Positions 2,217 to 20,873 of a DNA stretch of 64,000 nt are shown here, in pieces (within the stretch, counting starts at the first letter, position 1; the number at the start of each line of letters is the position of its first letter). This stretch comes from an uncultured Elusimicrobia bacterium (lineage in GTDB: Bacteria; Elusimicrobiota; Elusimicrobia; UBA1565; UBA9628): positions 1-64,000 of the forward strand of contig CAIKVT010000001.1 in NCBI GenBank assembly GCA_903830945.1, written 5' to 3'. The notes beneath the pieces are model-generated. The model saw only the letters and a program-made list of their open reading frames with translations, was not told where the DNA came from and did not search any database. The position numbers were made by a program, and so were the translations under genes.

Positions 2217-4489
2217 GCGACGGCTCCTCCTCCATGTACGACTTGCTCCGCTCGGAGATAGAGACCAATGCCGCCTCTTTGACGGACGGGCTGCTGAACC
2301 TGGAACGCGCCTCAGCCTCCCCGCAGACCATAGAGCCGCTCATGCGCGCCGCCCATTCCATAAAAGGCGCCGCCCGGATCGTCGGCCTGGATGCGGCGGT
2401 CAAGGTCGCCCATGCCCTGGAAGACTTCCTTGTGGCCGCCCAGGCTGGCACCGCGGCACTGGATTCCGCGAAGGTGGACGTCTTGCTTAAAGGCGTCGAC
2501 CTGCTCAAAAAGATCAGCGCGTCCGCCGATCCAGCCACCTTCGCCCTGCCTGAATCGGAAACCCAGGAAGCGCAGTGCATGGCGGCCGCGATCGGCGCGC
2601 TCGGCCGCGAGCCTGAGATTCCTCGCCTGATCTTAATCGATCCCCCGCTGGAGAGCGACGAAAAACCTGCGGCAAAAACGCAGGCGCCTGCGCCTGCGCC
2701 TTCGGCGCCGGCCAAGCCCAAAGCCGCCCCTCGTCCTGCGCCCACGGAAGCCGAGAGGATCGTTCGAGTCAATGCCGCCGGTATGGATCATATCCTGGGA
2801 CTGTCGGGGGAATTGTTCGTGCAGAGCGGCAGGCTCGAGGTTCTGGTCTTGGACCTGGGACGACTCAAATCCGCAGCCGATGAGACAGCGTCCTTGCTGG
2901 AAGGCGCATTCCAGGCGGCCCACGCAGGAGATATTCCCCGCGCCGTGGAAGTCTTGCAGCGCGCCAAGCAGCGCCATGAGCGCTGTGCTCGACTGCTTGG
3001 CGCGCACCGGGCTGACCTTGATGCGGCCCGGCGCCGCATCCTGGGGACATCGGGACGTCTTTATCAGGAGGCGCAATCGAGCAAGATGTGCCCTTTTGCG
3101 GACTGTGCGCAGGGATTCCCACGCATGGTGCGCGACATCTCCCGCTCTCTGGGCAAGGTCGCCAAGCTCGAGTTTTCGGGCATGAACGCGGGAGTCGACC
3201 GGGACATCCTGGAGAAGCTGGAATCGCCCCTCACCCATCTGCTGCGCAATGCCTTGGACCACGGGATCGAATCTCCGGAGCAAAGGATCAATTCTGGCAA
3301 GCAGATGGAAGGCGTCATCACCATGGACGCCTGGCACGCCGCGGGGATGTTGGTCGTGGAGATCGCCGACGACGGCGCCGGAGTGGATATGGCGCGCCTC
3401 AAGGAAACCATCGTCGCCAAAAAACTGACCACCGCCGAACTGGTGGCGAAGATGTCGGACTTCGAGATTTTAGATTTCATCTTCCTGCCCGGCTTCTCGA
3501 CGCGTGAGAACGTCACGGAGTTCTCCGGCCGGGGCATCGGCCTGGACATCGTCCAGGGGATGATCCGTGATGTCGGCGGGACTCTGCGCATGGAGAGCCG
3601 CCCGGGCCATGGGACTCGGTTCCGGCTGCGTCTGCCGCTGACCCTCTCCGTCATCAAAGCCCTCATCGTGGAGATATCTGGAGAACTCTACGCCCTGCCC
3701 CTGAGCCGGGCCAGCCGCTGCTGGCGCGCGTCCCGGCAGAAGGTCGTGCGCGTGGACGGGGTCAGACATCTGGAAACGGATGAGGGAAGGTTCAAGCTCG
3801 TGGCCGCGTCGGAGATCCTGGATCTGCAGCCAGCGGTCGAAGGCGCGTGCGTCTCCGCCGTGGGCATCGGCGAACCGCCGGAGCGTTACGCCCTCGAGGT
3901 GGACCGCCTCCTGGGCGAACGCCCCATCGCCGTACGCCCCCTGGACCCGCGGCTGGGCAAGATTCGGGATATCAGCGCAGCCGCGGTCTTGGACGACGGC
4001 TCTCCCATCTTGGTCCTCGATGCCGACGACCTTGTGCGTTCCGCGCAACTGTGCGTCCCGGTCTCGGGCCCGGCCAGGTCGGCCGGCTCCGGCGGCAAGC
4101 AAGACCACCGATTGAAGAGGCTGCTGGTCGTGGACGACTCTCCTACGGTCCGGGAAGTCGAACGGAAGATCCTGGAGAGCCATGGGTATCAGGTGGACAT
4201 GTCGATCAACGGCATGGACGCCTGGAACGCCGTCCGGTCTGCGCCTTATGATGCGGTGATCAGCGATGTCGACATGCCTCGCATGAACGGGCTGGAGCTG
4301 GCCAGACGCATCAAGGGCGAGCCGCGGCTTAAGGGCCTGCCCATCATCATCGTTTCTTATAAGGACAGCCCCGCGGACCGGGCGGAAGGTCTGCGGGCGG
4401 GAGCCAGTTTATACCTAAGCAAGGGTAGCTTTCAGGACGACACTTTGCTGCGCGCCGTTAAGGAGCTTCTGGGAGGGGAGAGCGAATGA
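2213..4489 (+). CDS. Hybrid chemotaxis histidine kinase CheA with receiver domain (WspE-like)
   Basis: 758 aa. Order of domains: HPt with AHSIKGAAR, so the phosphorylated His is H48; an Ala/Pro-rich linker about 140-175; a dimerisation helix; a HATPase with N box LTHLLRNALDHG (about 341), G1 box DDGAGVD and G2 box GRGIGLDIV; a CheW domain about 475-620; and a C-terminal receiver (about 636-755) with LLVVDDS, phospho-acceptor D685 in ISDVDMP and a conserved Lys in YLSKGS. There is no P2 CheY-binding domain, as in WspE. The start ATG overlaps the previous stop, and the end overlaps cheB by ATGA. It should phosphorylate its own receiver, CheB and the REC-PP2C protein at the end of the operon. 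Confidence 0.95.
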   Translation: MSDGSSSMYDLLRSEIETNAASLTDGLLNLERASASPQTIEPLMRAAHSIKGAARIVGLDAAVKVAHALEDFLVAAQAGTAALDSAKVDVLLKGVDLLKKISASADPATFALPESETQEAQCMAAAIGALGREPEIPRLILIDPPLESDEKPAAKTQAPAPAPSAPAKPKAAPRPAPTEAERIVRVNAAGMDHILGLSGELFVQSGRLEVLVLDLGRLKSAADETASLLEGAFQAAHAGDIPRAVEVLQRAKQRHERCARLLGAHRADLDAARRRILGTSGRLYQEAQSSKMCPFADCAQGFPRMVRDISRSLGKVAKLEFSGMNAGVDRDILEKLESPLTHLLRNALDHGIESPEQRINSGKQMEGVITMDAWHAAGMLVVEIADDGAGVDMARLKETIVAKKLTTAELVAKMSDFEILDFIFLPGFSTRENVTEFSGRGIGLDIVQGMIRDVGGTLRMESRPGHGTRFRLRLPLTLSVIKALIVEISGELYALPLSRASRCWRASRQKVVRVDGVRHLETDEGRFKLVAASEILDLQPAVEGACVSAVGIGEPPERYALEVDRLLGERPIAVRPLDPRLGKIRDISAAAVLDDGSPILVLDADDLVRSAQLCVPVSGPARSAGSGGKQDHRLKRLLVVDDSPTVREVERKILESHGYQVDMSINGMDAWNAVRSAPYDAVISDVDMPRMNGLELARRIKGEPRLKGLPIIIVSYKDSPADRAEGLRAGASLYLSKGSFQDDTLLRAVKELLGGESE

Positions 4490-11659: not shown

Positions 11660-13834
11660 ATGTCTCCGAAATATACATTCTCCGATGAATGGCTGTTGCG
11701 CGCGGCCCTGGCCCTGCCCGGCGTGACGTCTGAGGTGGTCGAAAAGTTCCGTCAGATACAAGAACCTTACCTTGCGCAGGCCTTGATCAGCGCCGGGCTG
11801 GCCTCCTCGGCGCAGGTCGTGGATATCGTGCGCGAGATCTGCGGCGTCGTCTATTGCGACCTCCAGATGGAGATGATCGACAAGATGGCGCTGAGTCTCG
11901 TGCCTGAGAAAGTCTGCCGGAAATACCATCTGCTCCCTATCGAATTCGACAGCGAGCGGATCACGGTGACCATGTCGGATCCGACGGACCAGGTCGCTCT
12001 TGGAGACGTCCAGGCTGTTTCCGGCCGCCGGCCGGTTGTTCGCTATAGCCGGCGCGAGACGATCGATGAGCTCATCGAGACTCTTTTTTCTCCAGAGTCC
12101 CTCATCATGAGCTTAGTAACCGGCTTGGCTGAGTCCGCGTCCATCGAGCTTTTGGAGGGAGGGTACAGCGAGGAGGAATCGGACGACCAAACCGTTACGG
12201 TTGTGCAGACGCCGGTCATCAATCTGGTCAATTCCTTAATCGCTAAGGCCGTCCATATGCGGGCCTCGGATATCCATTTGGAGCACGAGGAGCGCAGCAG
12301 CTCCGTCCGTTATCGGATCGACGGCATGCTGCGCAACATCGTCACCCTGCCTAGGGCGATCGCGACGACCTCTGTGGTGTCCCGGATCAAGATCATGGCG
12401 GATATGGACCTGGCCACGCACCGCATCCCGCAGGACGGCCGCGCCAAGCTGCGCGTGGGAGGCGTGGACATCGGTCTGCGCGTCTCGACTCTGCCCACCA
12501 GCTTCGGAGAGAAAGTCGTCATCCGCATACTCGACAAGCGCGCGGCCGAGGTCCCTTTCGATCGCCTTGGGTTCAGGGCCGATCTGGCGGCCAAGATAGA
12601 GTCTTTGCTCCAGGCCGCTCAAGGCATGTTCCTGGTGACCGGCCCTACCGGTTCCGGGAAGACCACCACCATGTATTCCATGCTCAATCGCCTCAAGGCC
12701 GAGCATACCAACATCGTCACCGTGGAAGATCCCGTCGAATACAAGCTGGCCGGCATCAACCAAGTCCAGGTCCATGAGAAGGCGGGCTTGACTTTCGCCA
12801 GCACCCTGCGTTCGGTGTTGCGCCAGGACCCGGACATCATCCTGGTGGGAGAGATCCGGGATCGCGAGACTGCGGATATCGCTTTCCAAGCCGCCTTGAC
12901 CGGGCATCTGGTTTTAACCACTTTACACACCAACGACACGATCGCCACGGTGTCGCGGCTTTGCGACATGGGCGTGGAGCCCTTCAAGTTGGCCTCCGGG
13001 TTGATCGCCGTCACCTCCCAAAAATTGGTGCGCCGGCTCTGTCCTGCCTGTCGACGCGAGGTGCCCGTGGATCGGCTCGAACCCGGAGCCCGCGAACTTC
13101 TGGAACGGCAGGGGCTGCCTTTGCGCGTTTATGAGGCTAAGGGCTGCGAAATGTGTGAATTGTCAGGATTCCAGGGCCGTTTCTCCATCTTGGAGTTCCT
13201 GGAGGTCGATGCCGCGCTCAAGGCCGGGATCTGTGCCGGCGCTACGGAGGCCGTTTTGCGTAAGACCGCTCTGGCTTCCGGAGTCCTGCATTCCTTGGCC
13301 GCGGATGCCGCCTGGCACTTATCCATCGGCGACACCACGTTCGACGAGATCCTTCCGTATCTCAGCATGAAGGAGGAGGTGTCCGGCGCGACGCCGGTCT
13401 TGGCCCCGACCGCCGCTGTCTCGGCGGAGAAAGCGAAGGGCCGGTCCGACAAGCCGCGGGTCCTGGTGGTCGATGATACTAAGGCCATGCGCACCAGCGT
13501 CGTGGATCTTCTAGAAATGAACGGCTATGAGGTGGATGAGGCTGCCGACGGCCAGCAGGCCCTGGAGCGAGTCTCGGCGCGAGTCCCGGACATCCTGATT
13601 CTGGATCTACAGATGCCGACGCTCGACGGCTACGCGGTTTTGCACTCCCTGCGCCAGACCATGTCGCTTATCAATCTGCCCGTGATCGTGCTCACGGGAT
13701 GCGGCGACGATAAAAGCCAGGAGGAGGCGTTCCGCGCCGGCGCGGACGACTATATCGTCAAGCCGTTCAAGCCCCCTCTGTTTTTGGCCAGGATACAGGC
13801 GGTCCTGCACCGCCGTTATGTGGTCGCGCATTGA
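11660..13834 (+). CDS. PilB/GspE-family secretion ATPase with C-terminal receiver domain
   Basis: 724 aa. Residues about 1-165 resemble the MshEN/T2SSE N-terminal domain (LISAGLASSAQVVDIVREICG, LVPEKVCRKYHLLPIEF). The ATPase follows with SDIHLEHEE, Walker A GPTGSGKTTT (about 327-336), the Asp box and Walker B ILVGEIRDRETA, and the His box LTTLHTND. A zinc site is CPAC...CEMC. After about residue 600 comes a full receiver: VLVVDDTKAM, phospho-acceptor in LILDLQMPTLDG, then VIVLTGCG and YIVKPF. The protein would power assembly of a type IV pilus or type II secretion pseudopilus at the inner membrane. A receiver at the C-terminus of such an ATPase is unusual and suggests phosphorylation control of assembly. 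No other pilus gene is in the window. Confidence 0.93.
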   Translation: MSPKYTFSDEWLLRAALALPGVTSEVVEKFRQIQEPYLAQALISAGLASSAQVVDIVREICGVVYCDLQMEMIDKMALSLVPEKVCRKYHLLPIEFDSERITVTMSDPTDQVALGDVQAVSGRRPVVRYSRRETIDELIETLFSPESLIMSLVTGLAESASIELLEGGYSEEESDDQTVTVVQTPVINLVNSLIAKAVHMRASDIHLEHEERSSSVRYRIDGMLRNIVTLPRAIATTSVVSRIKIMADMDLATHRIPQDGRAKLRVGGVDIGLRVSTLPTSFGEKVVIRILDKRAAEVPFDRLGFRADLAAKIESLLQAAQGMFLVTGPTGSGKTTTMYSMLNRLKAEHTNIVTVEDPVEYKLAGINQVQVHEKAGLTFASTLRSVLRQDPDIILVGEIRDRETADIAFQAALTGHLVLTTLHTNDTIATVSRLCDMGVEPFKLASGLIAVTSQKLVRRLCPACRREVPVDRLEPGARELLERQGLPLRVYEAKGCEMCELSGFQGRFSILEFLEVDAALKAGICAGATEAVLRKTALASGVLHSLAADAAWHLSIGDTTFDEILPYLSMKEEVSGATPVLAPTAAVSAEKAKGRSDKPRVLVVDDTKAMRTSVVDLLEMNGYEVDEAADGQQALERVSARVPDILILDLQMPTLDGYAVLHSLRQTMSLINLPVIVLTGCGDDKSQEEAFRAGADDYIVKPFKPPLFLARIQAVLHRRYVVAH

Positions 13835-13901: not shown

Positions 13902-14852
13902 GTGCCCGTCCTGCTGGCGCTTGAGGATTCCCTTGAGCGCGTTCGTTCCGGACTAAGAAGTCGCAGCCGCCGCATCTCTGGCCGCGTCGGAGAGGAGTTG
14001 GCCGAGCAGATGGCCCGCCCCGGCAAGATGCTGCGTGCGCGTTTCTGCCTGCTCTTGGGCGCCGCCCTCGGCGTGGAGACGGCTAAGTCCGAGGCCGCGG
14101 CCCGGGGCATGGAATTCGTGCACAATGCGTCTCTCCTGCACGATGACTGCGTCGACCTGGCCCGTCTGCGCCGGGGCCGCCCCACGCCTAACGAGGTCTT
14201 CGGCGTCAACGTGGCTTTGCTCTTGGGCGACATGGCATTCGCCCAGGGACTCGAGGAGGTCGTCGACCTCACCCCCCAGTCGGCCAAGCGCATGATCAGC
14301 ACGGCGCGTGAGATGGCCGTAGGCGAGCTCCAGGAAGAGTTCCTCAAGGGTAGCGTCGGGGTCACGGTGGAAGCCTATCTTGGCGTCATCTCCCGTAAGA
14401 CCGGAGCCCTTTTCGAGTGGTGCGGAGCCACGCTTTCCGAGCTTTCCAGCCTGCCGCATGCTGCCGCGGACCCGCCGCGTCTGGGCAGCGCGGCTGGCAT
14501 GCTCCTGCAGATCGTCGACGATATCCAGGACTACACTTTGACCGAGGCCGCTTCGGGTAAGGAGCCTGGTCGGGACCTTTGCGAAGGTCGCCTCACTTTG
14601 CCTGCCATCCTCGCGTTCAACGACCCAGCGGCGCGGCCGGCGTTCCTTAAGCTTTGGGGGGCCGGGGGGGGGATCGCTTCGGTGCGCCGCATGGCGCAGT
14701 TCCTCGAGACATCCGGCCATCTTGATGCGGCGCGCGCTAGGGCGAGGGAATTGGTGAGTTCGATTCGCGCCTGGGCCGCGGCTCTACCGGTCCGGCCGTA
14801 CAGCCAGAATTTCTGCGGCTTCATCGACGCCATGGAGCGCCGGGAGTTCTAG
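13902..14852 (+). CDS. Long-chain polyprenyl diphosphate synthase (IspB/HepT-like)
   Basis: 316 aa, normal for trans-prenyltransferases. First Asp-rich motif: LLHDDCVD with D81, followed by RRGRPTPNEVFG. Second motif: LLQIVDDIQDYT, followed by GRDLCEGRLTLPAI. The residues 4 and 5 before the first motif are Ser and Ala; small residues there are associated with long products, so a C35-C50 chain is likely, by family knowledge. The enzyme would extend FPP or GGPP with IPP. It opens a coupled operon with a UbiA prenyltransferase three genes on, which can use its product. The GTG start is set by the -10 box 5 nt upstream. A run of nine G lies at 14664-14672 in the 3' part. Confidence 0.9.
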   Translation: MPVLLALEDSLERVRSGLRSRSRRISGRVGEELAEQMARPGKMLRARFCLLLGAALGVETAKSEAAARGMEFVHNASLLHDDCVDLARLRRGRPTPNEVFGVNVALLLGDMAFAQGLEEVVDLTPQSAKRMISTAREMAVGELQEEFLKGSVGVTVEAYLGVISRKTGALFEWCGATLSELSSLPHAAADPPRLGSAAGMLLQIVDDIQDYTLTEAASGKEPGRDLCEGRLTLPAILAFNDPAARPAFLKLWGAGGGIASVRRMAQFLETSGHLDAARARARELVSSIRAWAAALPVRPYSQNFCGFIDAMERREF

Positions 14853-14855
14853 CGC

Positions 14856-15359
14856 ATGGGCTACGAGGCTCTCATCCGGCGTGCCTGGCGCACCGGTGAC
14901 TTCAGCATCAAGGAGCTTCTTAAGGACGACCCGGATCCCGTGGCCTGCGGTATCGGAAGTTCCGCAGGTCCCGGCCGGGTGGATTTCCCCGCAGCCGGGG
15001 TCACCTGCGAGCGGCTTCGCCGTAAAGTCCAAGAGGAGATGGAAGGCATTATCGCGCGAGAGGCGGGCGACGCCGCGTGCTGCCTGAGCGCTTACAAGGA
15101 GGGTTCTATGAAACTGGCCCCGTTCGTGAAATTCCGTGAGGAGAAGTTCGGCGCTGTTCTTTTTGAGACCCGTTCCGAGAAGGTCTACACCCTGAGTCCG
15201 ACTGGCGCCGCGGTGGTGCGCGAGATCGTCTCCGGCGCTGACGCCCAGTCCTTGGTCTCCCGCCTCCAGAAGAAATACGCGGATAAGACTGGAAAAATGG
15301 TTGATGAGGCCAACGCTTTCTTGGCTGACCTCAAGAAAAAGGGACTGGTTACGGAGTAG
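14856..15359 (+). CDS. PqqD-like RiPP recognition protein with an N-terminal extension
   Basis: 167 aa as one frame. The last 83 residues, from the internal ATG at 15108, look like PqqD and MftB peptide-binding proteins: a beta-rich start (FVKFREEKFGAVLFETRSEKVYTLSPTGAAVVREI) and a helical end (VDEANAFLADLKKKGLVTE). These winged-helix proteins bind the leader of a RiPP precursor and present it to a radical-SAM enzyme. The first 84 residues contain several Cys (VACGIG, GVTCERL, DAACC) and match nothing I know. ATG 14856 is 3 nt after the synthase stop. A perfect AAGGAGG precedes ATG 15108, so a short PqqD-like protein may be made instead of, or as well as, the long one. The next gene starts one nt after its stop. 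Confidence 0.75.
   Translation: MGYEALIRRAWRTGDFSIKELLKDDPDPVACGIGSSAGPGRVDFPAAGVTCERLRRKVQEEMEGIIAREAGDAACCLSAYKEGSMKLAPFVKFREEKFGAVLFETRSEKVYTLSPTGAAVVREIVSGADAQSLVSRLQKKYADKTGKMVDEANAFLADLKKKGLVTE
15096..15110 (+). promoter_or_regulatory. Strong internal ribosome binding site for the short PqqD-like form
   Basis: AAGGAGG at 15096-15102 stands 5 nt before ATG 15108, in frame inside the longer reading frame. It is the best Shine-Dalgarno sequence in the operon and falls exactly at the start of the PqqD-like domain. Confidence 0.65.
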
Positions 15360-15360
15360 G

Positions 15361-16329
15361 ATGGCCATAGTACTTCCTGAGAGCCTGGGCGCCAGCGCCG
15401 CGGACCTCAAGTCTCCTCTTTATGCCGCTTGGCAGCTGACAAACGAGTGCGACCTGTGCTGCCTGCATTGCATCGAAGGTTCGGGGCCCGGGAAGGCTTT
15501 TGCGAACGAGCTTTCCCGGGGCGAGGCATTCCGGATAGTCGATGAGCTCATCGCGGCAGAGGTGCCTTACGTGGCATTTTCCGGCGGCGAGCCCCTTCTG
15601 CATCCGCATCTCTTCGAGTTGCTGGACCGCTTCCGGGGCCATGGGGTGGGCCTTAAGCTCGAGACCAACGGCCAGTTCCTCGACCCGGCGACGTGCGGTC
15701 GTTTGGCCGACGCCCAGGTCAAGGCCGTGCAGGTGTCTCTCGATGGGATCAGCGAGCCAGTCTTGCAAAAGCTGCGGCCCAAGGCCAGCCTTCAGAAGAT
15801 CATGGACGGCATCCGCGGCCTGCGCGATGTCGGAGTCTCAGTCGAGGTCAATTTCGCGCCTACCCGGCACAACGTGGGCCAGGTCTCGTCGACCATGGAC
15901 TTGGCGCAGTCCTTCGGCGCCTATGCTTTCTACACCGGCCGGCTCATGTACACGGGCCGTGCCGTGCATTCTTGGGACAAGATTGCGCCTTCCGAAGAGC
16001 AGTATGCGGTCTTCTTCGCCGCGGTCAGGGCCAAGGCTCGGGAGTTCGAGGGCCGCATGCGTGTCTGTTACCATGAGTCGGGCATCGTGGAAGAACTGCG
16101 CTATCGTGCGGCGCACCCTGCCGCGCTCATCATCATTCTGCCCGATGGCAGGGTAAAGCTCATCAATGCACTGCCTTTCACTTGTGGGGACCTGCGCCGT
16201 CAGAGCCTCTCTGAGGTCTGGGCGCGTTACCAGCAGGCGTGGCAGGACCCCTGCGTCACCGGCTTCATAGAAGAATTGGACAAGGACGAGAAGGCCATCT
16301 CGCGATTGCATGAGTGGGTGGAGTTGTGA
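15361..16329 (+). CDS. Radical SAM protein A of the peptide/prenyl cluster, reduced SPASM end
   Basis: 322 aa. The cluster motif is CDLCCLHC (CX3CX2C) in AWQLTNECDLCCLHC; AFSGGEPLLHP is the SAM-binding GGEP block and VQVSLDG follows later. The C-terminus has the SPASM-like layout (LPDGRVKLINALPFTCGDLRRQSLSEVW), but only two or three Cys, too few for two auxiliary [4Fe-4S] clusters. Relatives PqqE, MftC and heme d1 enzyme NirJ act on peptides or ring systems. It is a paralogue of the two radical-SAM genes downstream. It starts at ATG 15361, one nt after the PqqD-like stop, and its stop overlaps the UbiA start by GTGA. It is the most complete of the three and my best guess for the first modifying enzyme. 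Confidence 0.88.
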   Translation: MAIVLPESLGASAADLKSPLYAAWQLTNECDLCCLHCIEGSGPGKAFANELSRGEAFRIVDELIAAEVPYVAFSGGEPLLHPHLFELLDRFRGHGVGLKLETNGQFLDPATCGRLADAQVKAVQVSLDGISEPVLQKLRPKASLQKIMDGIRGLRDVGVSVEVNFAPTRHNVGQVSSTMDLAQSFGAYAFYTGRLMYTGRAVHSWDKIAPSEEQYAVFFAAVRAKAREFEGRMRVCYHESGIVEELRYRAAHPAALIIILPDGRVKLINALPFTCGDLRRQSLSEVWARYQQAWQDPCVTGFIEELDKDEKAISRLHEWVEL

Positions 16330-17276
16330 GCGAACAATCACTGTCCCCCAATGGTGCGGCCGCCCCTTGCGGGGGGGCGGCCGGAGTCGGCGTTCGCTGG
16401 GCACCGAATTCCATTTTTTCGGTCATCCGTTACCGGTTTTTCTTGTATGCGGGCCTGTTGCCCTATCTCTTGGGTGCGGCTTGGGCCTACGGTCGGGAGG
16501 GGATGTTCAGCCCGCGGGTGTTCTGGCTGGGCTTCTTGGGCATCTTCCTCTCCGTGGTGGGCGTGGAGTCTTTCAACGAATATTTTGACGCGCGTTTGGG
16601 CACGGATCGGGTCTTCAACCTCTCGGACGAAGAGGATATCCCTGAGTGGATGCTGTGGCTGGGCATCGCGGCTTTCATAGTGGCGGCCGGCATCGGGCTC
16701 TATCTCGCGGTCGGCGGAGGCTGGCCCATACTGCTTTACACTGTTCTTGGCGGTCTGGCCGCGGTCTTCTACGTGGGCCCGCCCATCCGATGGGTCTACC
16801 GCGGTTTAGGCGAGACGGCTATCGGTCTTTCTTATGGCCCCTGGATGACCTTGGGCAGTCTGCAATTGCACACCCACCGCTTCTCCTGGGGGGGGCTTGC
16901 CGCTTCGTTGGTGCCCGGCCTGCTCATTACGGCCCTGGCCGTGGTCAATGAGATCCCGGACTTCCACCAAGACCGGCTAGTGGGCAAGCGGAACCTGGTG
17001 GTGCGGCTGGGCCGGCGTGCGGGAGTCTGGCTCTATCTTATCTTCGCCGGTACCGGGCTCCTGGTCGCGGGCGCGGGAGCGGCCGCGGGGATCTTCCCGC
17101 GCGCCGCCGTGCTTGCTGCGGTCGTGGGCGCACCTTTCCTTTGGGCCAGCGGATGCGCCGCGCGCGCGACCTGGGATACTCCGAGGCTTTTCGTCCCGGC
17201 CGTGCGCTCCATCGTGCTCTGTTATGTCGTCTCCACGACCCTCTTTACCGTGGCGATTGCCTGGGGAGGCCGGTGA
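16326..17276 (+). CDS. UbiA-family polyprenyltransferase (MenA-like)
   Basis: 316 aa, integral membrane, with about eight or nine hydrophobic helices. First Asp-rich motif: ESFNEYFDARLGTD. Second: NEIPDFHQDRLVGKRNLVVRLG. Both match the magnesium-diphosphate sites of UbiA and MenA enzymes, which attach a polyprenyl chain to an aromatic ring. MenA makes demethylmenaquinone, but no other men gene is near. Here it lies between two radical-SAM genes and shares an operon with a polyprenyl diphosphate synthase and a PqqA-like peptide, so the acceptor may be a peptide-derived aromatic product. GTG 16326 overlaps the previous stop, and the stop overlaps the next GTG. A 10-bp hairpin lies in codons 11-20, and a run of eight G occurs near 16888-16895. 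Confidence 0.9.
   Translation: MSEQSLSPNGAAAPCGGAAGVGVRWAPNSIFSVIRYRFFLYAGLLPYLLGAAWAYGREGMFSPRVFWLGFLGIFLSVVGVESFNEYFDARLGTDRVFNLSDEEDIPEWMLWLGIAAFIVAAGIGLYLAVGGGWPILLYTVLGGLAAVFYVGPPIRWVYRGLGETAIGLSYGPWMTLGSLQLHTHRFSWGGLAASLVPGLLITALAVVNEIPDFHQDRLVGKRNLVVRLGRRAGVWLYLIFAGTGLLVAGAGAAAGIFPRAAVLAAVVGAPFLWASGCAARATWDTPRLFVPAVRSIVLCYVVSTTLFTVAIAWGGR
16357..16383 (+). promoter_or_regulatory. GC hairpin just inside the UbiA coding region
   Basis: CGGCCGCCCC (16357-16366) is the exact reverse complement of GGGGCGGCCG (16374-16383), with a 7-nt loop. It starts 31 nt after the GTG and could slow ribosomes or limit UbiA relative to the radical-SAM proteins. The encoded stretch is a variable N-terminal region, so the sequence is not forced by an active site. 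Confidence 0.4.
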
Positions 17277-18250
17277 GGATCGATTCTTTCGGCGCTCCGC
17301 TCATGGTCTCGTGGCACTTCACCCAGGAGTGCGACCTGGCCTGCCTGCACTGCTGTACGGATTCCGGGCCCGGGGGGAGGCTGCCTGACGAGCTTTCCGC
17401 GGATGAAGCCCTGGGCGTGGCGGAGCAGATCGCCGCGGCCGAGGTCCCCTACGTGCTCTTCGGTGGAGGGGAGCCGGCCGCCGTGCCGCATTTTTTGGCC
17501 ACGGCCGAGGTGCTTGGGCATGCCGGCGTGTATCTTAAGGTCGAGACCAACGGTCAGAGGCTCAAGGATCAGACCATCGCGCGCCTGGCCAGCCTGCCCG
17601 TTAGATCTGTCCAGGTGTCCTTGGATGGTGCGACCCAGCAGGCTTACGGCCGGCTGCGCCCGGGGGCTTGCCTGCAGGCGGCCGTGGATACTTGCCGCCG
17701 GGTCCGCGACGCAGGCCTGCCCTTGGAGGTCACCTTCGTCCCGACGAGATTCAACCTGGGCGAGGCCGATGCGGTGATGGACCGAGCCCTGGATTTGGGC
17801 GCTTTCCGGTTCAACACCGGGGCGCTGATGCGGCTGGGCCGGGCCGCGCGGTCCTGGGACGCGCTGGAACCGTCTTCCCAAGACTATGGAGAATTTCTTA
17901 GACTCTTAGGGCGCAAGGAGCGGGAGTTGGCGGGCCGCATGGAAGTCTGCTACCGTCCGTTCCATCTGCGCCAGGGCTTGGAGGAGTGGCTCCACGAGCC
18001 GCCGGGAACCTTGTCGGTGCAGGCGGACGGGAAGGTGATGGTGTCGGCGGTCTTGCCCTTGTTTTGCGCGGATCTGCGTCAGGACTCTCTAGCCCAGGCG
18101 TGGGACATGTACCGCTCGGCTTGCGGGTCGGCGGACGCGGTCGATGCTCTTAAGGCTTTGATTTGCAACGATCTGCCCAGACAGGACGCAGGTCTGGGCG
18201 TAGGAGACAGGAATGGACGAGCGCAACACTGTGACCGATGTGAAGGCTGA
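17273..18250 (+). CDS. Radical SAM protein B of the peptide/prenyl cluster
   Basis: 325 aa from GTG 17273, overlapping the UbiA stop. Cluster motif CDLACLHC in HFTQECDLACLHC, then LFGGGEPAAVPHF (GGEP block) and VQVSLDG. The C-terminal VQADGKVMVSAVLPLFCADLRQDSLAQAW follows the same pattern as proteins A and C but has few Cys. ETNGQRLKDQ and FVPTRFNLGEAD are shared with the paralogues, so the three arose by duplication. The last 38 nt overlap the small peptide gene in another frame. The final 25 or so residues have no counterpart in A and look unconstrained apart from encoding the peptide start. The substrate is presumably the peptide bound by the PqqD-like protein. Confidence 0.87.
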   Translation: MRIDSFGAPLMVSWHFTQECDLACLHCCTDSGPGGRLPDELSADEALGVAEQIAAAEVPYVLFGGGEPAAVPHFLATAEVLGHAGVYLKVETNGQRLKDQTIARLASLPVRSVQVSLDGATQQAYGRLRPGACLQAAVDTCRRVRDAGLPLEVTFVPTRFNLGEADAVMDRALDLGAFRFNTGALMRLGRAARSWDALEPSSQDYGEFLRLLGRKERELAGRMEVCYRPFHLRQGLEEWLHEPPGTLSVQADGKVMVSAVLPLFCADLRQDSLAQAWDMYRSACGSADAVDALKALICNDLPRQDAGLGVGDRNGRAQHCDRCEG

Positions 18251-18332
18251 CGAGAAGCTCGCGTGGGAGACTCCTTCGATCGAGGAAGTCACCGACCGGG
18301 TTATGGCGCAGCCCTACATTCGGTTCACGTGA
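18213..18332 (+). CDS. PqqA-like precursor peptide (39 aa), candidate RiPP substrate
   Basis: A 39-codon frame with AGGAG at 18202-18206, 6 nt before ATG 18213, starting inside radical-SAM gene B and ending in a GTGA overlap with gene C. The leader is charged (MDERNTVTDVKADEKLA). It is followed by WETPSIEEVTDRVMAQPY and the tail IRFT. PqqA from Klebsiella and Methylobacterium, from memory, have Trp, then Pro at +3, an aliphatic or aromatic residue at +5, Glu/Asp at +7, an aliphatic residue at +8 and the reacting Tyr at +17 from the Trp. This peptide has W, P+3, I+5, E+7, V+8 and Y+17, but Met instead of the reacting Glu at +13. The W-x2-P element is also what PqqD-type proteins tend to bind. 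The peptide is too short to be called by standard gene finding. That it is the substrate is inference. Confidence 0.72.
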   Translation: MDERNTVTDVKADEKLAWETPSIEEVTDRVMAQPYIRFT

Positions 18333-19285
18333 CGGACCAGAGGGGGGCGTCGGCGGGAGACTACCGCGCCCCCCTCTTTCTTGCCTGGCAGCTGACCAAT
18401 CGCTGCCGCTGCCGCTGCGTGTCCTGCTGCGAGGAGTCGGGCCCGGACCGGGCCTGGCCGCATGAGCTTTCCCGTGAAGAAGCTTTGAAGCTGGCCCGCG
18501 ACATCGTCGCGGCCGGCATTCCCTATGTGGCGTTCGGAGGCGGAGAGCCTGTGGCCGTGCCGCATTTTTGGGAGGTCTGCGAAATCCTCCATGCGGGCGG
18601 CGTGGGCCTTAAGATCGAGACGGACGGCCTGCTTCTCGACGAAGCGGCCTGCGTGCGGCTTAAGGAATGGGAAGTCGCCTGCGTGCAGATCAGCGTGGAC
18701 GGTGCCAGCGCCGAGGTCCATGACCGGGTGCGCCCCGGGGGATCGTTCGACGGCGCGGTGGCCGGCGTGCGCCGGCTGGCGCAGGCTGGCTTGGGGCCGG
18801 AGGTGGTCTTCACGCCCACTCGTCTTAACTTGGCGGATGCGCCCGCAGTCTTCGACCTGGCGGCGCGCATCGGAGCGCGGACCTTCGTGACCGGGCCCTT
18901 GATGCGCCTGGGGCGTGCGGCGGCGCATTGGAAGACCTTAGCGTCCTCGCAGAGCGATTGGCAGAAGACGGTGTCAGTCCTTGAGGAGCGGTCCCGGCTC
19001 CATGAAGGCAAGCTGCGTTTGTCGATTTATCCGTGGGGTGTGCGCGAGGAGATCCGCGTGCGGCGGCAGAGCCCGCAGGCCATGATGCTGGTGGTGCCGG
19101 ACGGGAAAGCCAAGCTCTTGAACGCCCTGCCTTTTGCGCCTGGTGACGTCCGGCGCCAGAGCCTCGCCGCGGCTTGGCAGGCGGTGTGCCGGGCCTGGAT
19201 ATCTCCCAAGGTGAACGATTTTATGGACCGGGTCCTGGCTGACCCGAAGCTGCTGTGCCACGCCAACGAGTGCTGGGACGTCTAG
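18329..19285 (+). CDS. Radical SAM protein C of the peptide/prenyl cluster
   Basis: 318 aa from GTG 18329, which overlaps the peptide stop. That start gives an N-terminus of the same length as in paralogues A and B, whereas the longer frame from 18263 would run through the whole peptide gene. Motif: CRCRCVSC (CX3CX2C), followed by AFGGGEPVAVPHF and VQISVDGAS. The SPASM-like end (VPDGKAKLLNALPFAPGDVRRQSLAAAW) aligns with A but the central Cys is replaced by Pro-Gly. Only a terminal LLCHANECW pair remains, so it probably has no full auxiliary cluster. It is the last gene of the coupled series. Confidence 0.86.
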   Translation: MTDQRGASAGDYRAPLFLAWQLTNRCRCRCVSCCEESGPDRAWPHELSREEALKLARDIVAAGIPYVAFGGGEPVAVPHFWEVCEILHAGGVGLKIETDGLLLDEAACVRLKEWEVACVQISVDGASAEVHDRVRPGGSFDGAVAGVRRLAQAGLGPEVVFTPTRLNLADAPAVFDLAARIGARTFVTGPLMRLGRAAAHWKTLASSQSDWQKTVSVLEERSRLHEGKLRLSIYPWGVREEIRVRRQSPQAMMLVVPDGKAKLLNALPFAPGDVRRQSLAAAWQAVCRAWISPKVNDFMDRVLADPKLLCHANECWDV

Positions 19286-19445: not shown

Positions 19446-20873
19446 ATGGAAAAGAAATCTAGTCTTGCTTGCAGGCTGATCTCTGCCGGCCTCTGCGCGG
19501 CACTTCTCTTCATAAGCCCCGGTCCAGCAGCCTATGCCGCCGCAGGCCAGATTGCGGCCGTCAAGGTCGTCGCCCCGGTCGGGTCTTCCATGGGCATGGT
19601 CGGCGGCTCTTTCGATGTCGGTGCAGCCGATAGGCTCGGCGCTCAACTCACCCTCAGCCCGATCGCGCGCAGCGCGAACCTGATTCCCGGCTCAGCCGCT
19701 CCGCTCGTCACCTCCCGGAGCCTCGCTTTCTCTGTCGAACAGGAAAGCCCGGTGGCAGTTGCCGAGACCTTGGCCGCGTCGGTCGTTGAGAGCAACACGG
19801 CCGCCCCAGTCAGCGGGCAGGCGGCACTCATAGGGCAGGCTCAGGACATCCAGGCGGTTCCCGGCCGGATGCAGGCTCCAGCCGCACGGGTTCAGATTGG
19901 CATCCTCAAGACCCTGCGCGCCATCTTCTCTGTCCGGAGCACCGTAGAAGGCCTTGGAATGGCCGCTGCCGTGCCGGTCGCGGAGCTTGGCGGCGTCTCC
20001 GCGGCCAGCCGACTTCAGCCCGCTGTTCTTGCCGAGAAGGGCATTGCGGCGCAGGTACCGGCGGCTTCCATCCTTTCCGCCCAGGCTCCGGCTAATTCTG
20101 CGTTCAAGACCGTCATGCGCTGGGCTTTGCCCATACTCGCAGTGACCGCTTTGGTCTTCGGCCTTGACTTCGGCACCAAGTTCCTCGCCGCCAAGTTTCT
20201 TGTCACGGTCTTCCATGAATGCGCTTGGCGCGCTCCTCTTCTGGCCGTCATCATTCCCTATATCGGGATTTCGGCCTTCTTGGCCCGTAAGTCTCTTCCC
20301 AACGATCATATGGTCTGGCACTGGTCTGTCCAGCAGATGGGAAACGGTCGCCTGGGATTTTATCGCGCGGAGGTCTCCGGCCTGGACACGATGAGCAAGG
20401 AGCACCCCTCTTTGCGCTGGGCGCTGAGGCTCTACGACCTTTCCATCGCCATGATGCTTGGCGGCATGCTCGGCAACGGAATCGACGGCTTCCGCCTGGG
20501 CGGAGCGCTCGACTGGATCCCCCTGGGACGCTCCCTCATGAATTTCGCCGACGTGGCGCTCCTTTGCGGCCTGGCTTTCTTTCAGTTGGCTACCAGCTTT
20601 TTCCTCAGGGCCAGCGAGGCGCACCATGACAATAAGCCTTTATATATGAGCATGGTCGGCTTTCTGGGCCTGCCGCTCGTCGGGTTCTTCATCGCTTGGG
20701 CGTTCGGCTCCGCGGCTACTGATGTGCCTCTCAATATGGCGATGAAGAGCGTCGCTTATATCTACATCATGGGTTTCTCCATGCTCCTAGGCATCTCACG
20801 CTTCCTCGCCGCCCTCGTGGTGGACCGTTTCGCTAAGCGGTTCGTTTCTGAGCAGGGGAACAAGAAATCCTGA
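19446..20873 (+). CDS. LspA-like (signal peptidase II) membrane protein with long secreted N-terminal region
   Basis: 475 aa. A signal peptide (KKSSLACRLISAGLCAALLFI...AAYA) is followed by about 190 residues of Ala/Val/Ser-rich low-complexity sequence. Residues about 223-470 form a polytopic domain with the marks of signal peptidase II: LDFGTKFLA near its start, GGMLGNGIDGF with Asp347 and LMNFADVALLCG with Asp369, matching the two catalytic aspartates of LspA in GNxxDR and NxAD. The Arg after the first Asp is Gly-Phe here. Ordinary LspA is about 160-170 aa with no extension. It lies right after the radical-SAM/UbiA operon with its own promoter box, so it might process a lipid-bearing peptide from that operon. 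That link is speculative. Confidence 0.7.
   Translation: MEKKSSLACRLISAGLCAALLFISPGPAAYAAAGQIAAVKVVAPVGSSMGMVGGSFDVGAADRLGAQLTLSPIARSANLIPGSAAPLVTSRSLAFSVEQESPVAVAETLAASVVESNTAAPVSGQAALIGQAQDIQAVPGRMQAPAARVQIGILKTLRAIFSVRSTVEGLGMAAAVPVAELGGVSAASRLQPAVLAEKGIAAQVPAASILSAQAPANSAFKTVMRWALPILAVTALVFGLDFGTKFLAAKFLVTVFHECAWRAPLLAVIIPYIGISAFLARKSLPNDHMVWHWSVQQMGNGRLGFYRAEVSGLDTMSKEHPSLRWALRLYDLSIAMMLGGMLGNGIDGFRLGGALDWIPLGRSLMNFADVALLCGLAFFQLATSFFLRASEAHHDNKPLYMSMVGFLGLPLVGFFIAWAFGSAATDVPLNMAMKSVAYIYIMGFSMLLGISRFLAALVVDRFAKRFVSEQGNKKS

Follow-up and report, generated by a model that had tools for sequence, protein, structure and literature searches.

Within the window, the 64,000-nucleotide stretch of DNA analysed here (contig CAIKVT010000001.1 of an uncultured Elusimicrobia bacterium), a cassette of seven genes at positions 13902-19285 of the + strand encodes a polyprenyl diphosphate synthase (PPS), a PqqD-type peptide chaperone, radical SAM enzyme A, a UbiA-superfamily prenyltransferase, radical SAM enzyme B, a short peptide and radical SAM enzyme C. 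We consider it rather likely that this cassette represents a RiPP-type pathway making a membrane lipoquinone, or a closely similar isoprenoid redox carrier, used as respiratory quinone. The ribosomal peptide would probably be the precursor or the scaffold of this prenylated quinone, which would be either menaquinone made by a new route or a new quinone. A more specific version, in which radical SAM enzymes would free the ring from the ribosomal peptide before it is prenylated, giving a third route to menaquinone or a new respiratory quinone, is held more tentatively, as a serious possibility.

The earlier note, made from the letters of this DNA, had described a seven-gene operon coupled from radical SAM enzyme A to radical SAM enzyme C by GTGA overlaps or nesting, a description that the coordinates and Pfam matches confirm (Table 1). 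GTGA overlaps occur at three junctions (radical SAM A/UbiA, UbiA/radical SAM B and peptide/radical SAM C), and the start of the peptide gene is nested within the 3' end of the radical SAM B gene, behind AGGAGA. A start at 18263, giving a longer reading frame for radical SAM C, was rejected in favour of the GTG at 18329, which is part of the GTGA that closes the peptide gene. The gene immediately before the cassette (11660-13834) encodes a PilB/T2SS ATPase that carries a response-regulator receiver domain at its C-terminus. Downstream (19446-20873), a gene that comes after the cassette in several members of the genus encodes a large protein whose N-terminal part is long and whose C-terminal membrane domain resembles signal peptidase II (PF01252).

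Table 1. Genes of the cassette and their positions in the window.
Feature	Position	Strand	Match
Polyprenyl diphosphate synthase (PPS), 316 aa	13902..14852	+	PF00348 1.2e-41
PqqD-type peptide chaperone (RRE)	14856..15359	+	PF05402 6e-9 over aa 100-165
Radical SAM enzyme A, 322 aa, CX3CX2C	15361..16329	+	PF04055
MenA-type UbiA-superfamily prenyltransferase, 316 aa	16326..17276	+	PF01040 2.6e-18
Radical SAM enzyme B, 325 aa, CX3CX2C	17273..18250	+	PF04055
Precursor peptide MDERNTVTDVKADEKLAWETPSIEEVTDRVMAQPYIRFT, 39 aa	18213..18332	+	conserved short ORF
Radical SAM enzyme C, 318 aa	18329..19285	+	PF04055

Three hallmarks of RiPP systems were found together: a short reading frame with conserved leader and core beside the enzymes, a PqqD/RRE protein matching PF05402 over its cut-off, and CX3CX2C radical SAM enzymes with a peptide-maturase fold, according to an AlphaFold2 model of enzyme A; the full set of SPASM cysteines is absent. 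For the chaperone, an internal ATG at 15108, behind the ribosome site AAGGAGGG, gives an 83-aa PqqD. Homologues from other phyla (83-94 aa) begin at the residue encoded there; since the 83-aa form matches their length, the N-terminal 84 aa of the reading frame are either a lineage-specific (Elusimicrobiota) extension or the result of an alternative start. This in-frame extension (14856-15107) is also conserved in related Elusimicrobiota, and the strong ribosome-binding site shares its DNA with the codons of the conserved K-E-G that precedes the internal Met.

The cassette is widely and coherently distributed. With radical SAM enzyme A as query in 57 related genomes, a close homologue was found in about 38, and the order PPS-PqqD-A-UbiA-B-peptide-C recurs in most of these, the other loci being truncated where a contig ends. 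Whenever a locus retrieved in this way has its B-C region intact, it includes a peptide of 33-41 aa ending in MAQPYIRFT*, as in the window. A degenerate pattern of this ending, for which we estimate less than one chance match, matched 100 stretches of DNA in the genome collection (loci L061-L160). They belong to Elusimicrobiota, Omnitrophota, Planctomycetota, Lentisphaerae and three classes of Proteobacteria (alpha, beta and gamma), apart from single metagenome-assembled genomes (MAGs) with other labels, and in nearly all of the stretches the peptide lies within the cassette. Two architectures were distinguished: type I, PqqD-A-UbiA-B-peptide-C, in Elusimicrobiota and Proteobacteria, and type II, peptide-PqqD-one radical SAM-UbiA, sometimes followed by a polyprenyl synthase, in Omnitrophota, Planctomycetota, Lentisphaerae and some Elusimicrobiota. 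PqqD, radical SAM and UbiA genes are present in all 92 complete loci (64 of type I and 28 of type II, some records belonging to two collections and being counted twice), the apparent exceptions from the motif search having been resolved by inspection of the loci. Furthermore, the cassette is inherited almost universally within an order of Elusimicrobiota.

The earlier note had asked whether UbiA, peptide and PqqD occur together, and had taken conserved neighbourhoods lacking the peptide or PqqD as evidence against its proposal. All complete loci examined, which span at least five phyla, have the three genes together, and no neighbourhood of the second kind was found among them; this co-occurrence strongly supports a single pathway. 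The three radical SAM enzymes that it had also claimed hold for type I; because only one is universal, they characterize one of two architectures and are not a requirement. The minimal cassette is peptide-PqqD-one radical SAM-UbiA. Among open-access papers, we found none describing it.

The leader of the peptide follows the pattern WxxPx(L/M/I)(E)(D/E)VS, with constant spacing of W, P and V, and its last nine residues are identical in 101 records with variable synonymous codons (four for Ala, four for Pro, six for Arg, four for Thr and three for Ile). Most core positions were fixed by the search pattern; Pro was unconstrained and Ile partly so, and both are invariant (101/101 each). In addition, the loci retrieved through radical SAM A, independently of the peptide pattern, have the identical ending wherever the B-C region is complete. 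An origin as chance reading frame is ruled out by the invariance of nine residues while synonymous codons vary, together with these pattern-independent loci. Judged from the sequences, the core is under purifying selection, and its rigidity would be that of a cofactor precursor rather than of a diversifying natural product. Additional copies were noticed in two places. Locus L079, from the MAG shared with L077, contains an orphan second peptide copy with a different leader (MERLKIDNETVSGCKPEWETPVIDEVTDRVMAQPYIRFT) at 3582-3613 on the - strand, with no cassette enzymes detected in the stretch examined. Two peptide occurrences (L073 and L156) on one 43-kb Burkholderiales contig, JADGRP010000208.1, suggest two cassettes.

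The radical SAM enzymes resemble peptide maturases. The model of enzyme A (pLDDT 94) has as its nearest solved folds SkfB, PqqE (second nearest) and SuiB, all peptide-modifying enzymes. In the tree, A, B and C form three clades, each with members from both Elusimicrobiota and Proteobacteria; a fourth is formed by the type II enzyme. CX3CX2C is kept in all four clades, but the SPASM-like part of none has more than one conserved Cys, and that of enzyme A has a single one. Since each of the three clades spans both groups, the three-enzyme cassette most likely moved as one unit, and A, B and C may be regarded as paralogues that travelled together between phyla. The best family scores were obtained with mycofactocin and heme radical SAM enzymes, far below cut-off.

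The prenyltransferase is close to MenA and distinct from it. Its sole sequence relative in the PDB is UBIAD1. In a tree that also included MenA, UbiA, CtaB and futalosine-cluster UbiA, 32 representative cassette UbiAs group in a single clade (SH-aLRT 100). This clade belongs to the MenA part and is separate from CtaB, UbiA and futalosine-cluster UbiA, the futalosine-cluster UbiA of Elusimicrobiota itself falling elsewhere. A firm grouping with MenA had been named in the earlier note as grounds against its proposal; the cassette enzymes do lie beside MenA, but as a clade of their own that differs from MenA at conserved positions of the Asp-rich motifs. The UbiA of the window scores below the MenA equivalog cut-offs (93 vs 264 and 53 vs 102 bits). 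Both Asp-rich motifs are intact (N88, D92, D98 and D216, D220, K225, in the numbering of our motif comparison), but in the alignment of 78 cassette UbiAs at least 95% have Pro where MenA has an Arg ahead of the second motif, a hint that the acceptor may not be DHNA. The PPS, which presumably supplies the isoprenoid tail, is the first cassette gene in most Elusimicrobiota loci and adjoins UbiA in several type II loci. A search of plasmids returned MenA-type UbiA only and no peptide. Elsewhere in the genome of the window (contig G000:C28, locus L055, 7622-10593), a radical SAM/SPASM gene is directly followed by one that encodes a divergent member of the UbiA family; no PqqD was noticed there. 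This second UbiA was set aside as quinone prenyltransferase, adjoining as it does an unrelated radical SAM/SPASM gene; weak UbiA matches in other members of the genus may be its orthologues.

The genomic context of the cassette points to respiration. In the genomes analysed, mostly MAGs, MenD over cut-off was found in none of the 72 holders (31 + 41) and in 7 of 14 controls, and MqnA/D in 2 of 69 holders (G065 and G381, each with a PF02621 gene); neither MenD nor MqnA/D was found in the window's own genome (G000). Among 341 Elusimicrobiota, 47 have the peptide and about 30 a strong MqnA/D match, with no overlap (Fisher p = 0.02, phylogeny ignored). Complex I and a haem-copper oxidase were present in most of the holders tested from Elusimicrobiota and Proteobacteria; NuoH was present in 19/19 and COX1 in 16/19 of the cassette-holding Elusimicrobiota relatives tested. 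The window's own genome has NuoH and no COX1, and several type II holders have no NuoH or no COX1, G064 and G066 being without both. UbiE/MenG over cut-off was found in none of the cassette-holding Elusimicrobiota, which speaks against an ordinary methylated menaquinone there, so these bacteria may make an unmethylated product or another quinone.

In six type II loci (L062, L093, L110, L130, L134 and L150), the cassette is immediately preceded, on the same strand, by Nqr/Rnf-type genes. Four show a run from nqrA/rnfC to nqrF, L134 a run starting at nqrC, and L110 nqrC-D-E; the NqrF of L150 passes TIGR01941 (311 vs 295 bits). Other type II neighbours, judged by sequence, are V-ATPase genes, cobalamin genes and AsrA/HydB-like flavoprotein subunits. 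Four non-holders among same-family Elusimicrobiota (G005, G007, G008 and G012) have complex I and COX1 and neither cassette nor Men/Mqn genes, implying another quinone source or genes missing from the assemblies. The odd UbiAs of G007 and G008 were discarded as a hidden version of the cassette, none being beside them in the stretches read.

The cassette also occurs in the cultivable Rhodothalassium salexigens, Rhodovibrio sodomensis and Rhodopila globiformis. The first reportedly contains MK-10, for which our literature search found no statement, and has a second MenA-like gene. MK-10 has been reported for Rhodovibrio (PMC7179689). R. globiformis contains MK-9, UQ-9 and rhodoquinone (PMC12542754); menaquinone was detected in the membranes, and a model places it at the QA site (PMC9640540). 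Its genome (G057) encodes UbiE, and neither MqnA/D nor MenD over cut-off was found in it. A 2024 survey has menaquinone in Pseudomonadota made by the Men pathway only (PMC11707229), and four species with menaquinone and without a pathway appear in a 2026 survey (PMC13386864). The peptide-derived lipoquinone proposed in the earlier note is strengthened by the Nqr linkage, the lack of known menaquinone pathways, the respiratory genes and the menaquinone of a cultured holder; its choice of Tyr as the residue that is prenylated, and the retention of peptide nitrogen in the product, are presumptive.

In the proposed pathway, PqqD would bind the leader and offer MAQPYIRFT, the C-terminus, to one or more radical SAM enzymes. 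These would alter a core residue, Tyr being the most plausible, by cross-linking, excision or some other modification. The aromatic unit might then be released, or might stay attached to a short peptide, and the polyprenyl synthase would provide the chain that the MenA-like enzyme adds. This product would feed complex I, Nqr and terminal oxidases where both known menaquinone pathways are absent, and the single-radical-SAM form would be the minimal set. The chemistry leading from this peptide to a naphthoquinone is hard to draw, which counts against the quinone reading. So do the four non-holders with respiratory genes and no Men/Mqn, the type II holders that are without NuoH or COX1, the second MenA-like gene of Rhodothalassium and the PF02621 genes of G065 and G381.

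An alternative that we regard as unlikely is a redox cofactor comparable to PQQ or mycofactocin, made as a prenylated RiPP and bound to the membrane, in which a polyprenyl-anchored, modified peptide fragment would serve specific dehydrogenases and not act as a pool quinone. The combination of PqqD, radical SAM enzyme and invariant core follows the logic of those systems, to which the best radical SAM scores also lean through mycofactocin, though far below cut-off, and the invariance of nine residues may mean that several of them persist in the product; against this, the loci have no conserved dehydrogenase neighbour, their linkage is to Nqr, and the prenyltransferase is of the MenA type and not of another kind.

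A prenylated RiPP natural product (a signal, toxin or siderophore) that UbiA would help to tailor is very unlikely: radical SAM enzyme, RRE and precursor are typical of such compounds, but natural-product cores diversify whereas this one is identical in at least five phyla, the loci show no conserved gene for an exporter, a protease or immunity, and inheritance is near-universal in an Elusimicrobiota order. Least probable of the readings weighed here is that the UbiA is an ordinary MenA merely adjoining an unrelated peptide-radical SAM system. Its nearest annotated relatives are indeed MenA; however, it belongs to every complete cassette in both architectures and across at least five phyla, has its own fully supported clade and its Arg-to-Pro replacement, and sits in hosts without MenD and, in nearly all cases, without MqnA/D.

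If this third route to menaquinone, or to a new respiratory quinone, is real, it would explain the menaquinone of Rhodopila and Rhodovibrio, as well as respiring lineages, such as these Elusimicrobiota, that apparently have no quinone pathway. With the cassette in cultivable Rhodopila, Rhodovibrio and Rhodothalassium, the question is directly testable.

To our knowledge, no lipoquinone pathway starts from a ribosomal peptide, and we know of no RiPP cofactor pathway that adds a polyprenyl tail. PQQ biosynthesis (PqqA, PqqD, PqqE) shares with the cassette a short precursor, a stand-alone PqqD, a peptide-acting radical SAM enzyme and a redox cofactor as end product. It differs in that PqqB/PqqC homologues are not conserved near the cassette, that MAQPYIRFT is without the E-x3-Y motif, that the PqqE and PqqD family cut-offs are not reached (by far for the radical SAM enzyme), and that the cassette adds a MenA-type prenyltransferase and a polyprenyl synthase. 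The mycofactocin system (MftA, MftB, MftC) resembles it in the PqqD/MftB-type chaperone, in MftC as top NCBIfam score of the radical SAM enzyme and in a Tyr near the C-terminus, but the scores fall short of the cut-offs (136 vs 265 bits for the radical SAM enzyme, 22 vs 33 for the chaperone), none of MftD/E/F was seen in the cassette, the peptide is unrelated and a prenyltransferase is present. Membership in the SynChlorMet, mycofactocin and PQQ families was rejected on such sub-threshold scores. With the Men and futalosine (Mqn) pathways, finally, the cassette shares a MenA-type prenyltransferase and a polyprenyl diphosphate synthase, and with the latter also the use of radical SAM enzymes; its holders, however, have no MenD over cut-off and almost no MqnA/D. 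A futalosine operon (two radical SAM enzymes and UbiA) was rejected as its identity, since MqnA/D is absent and the cassette radical SAM enzymes resemble peptide maturases.
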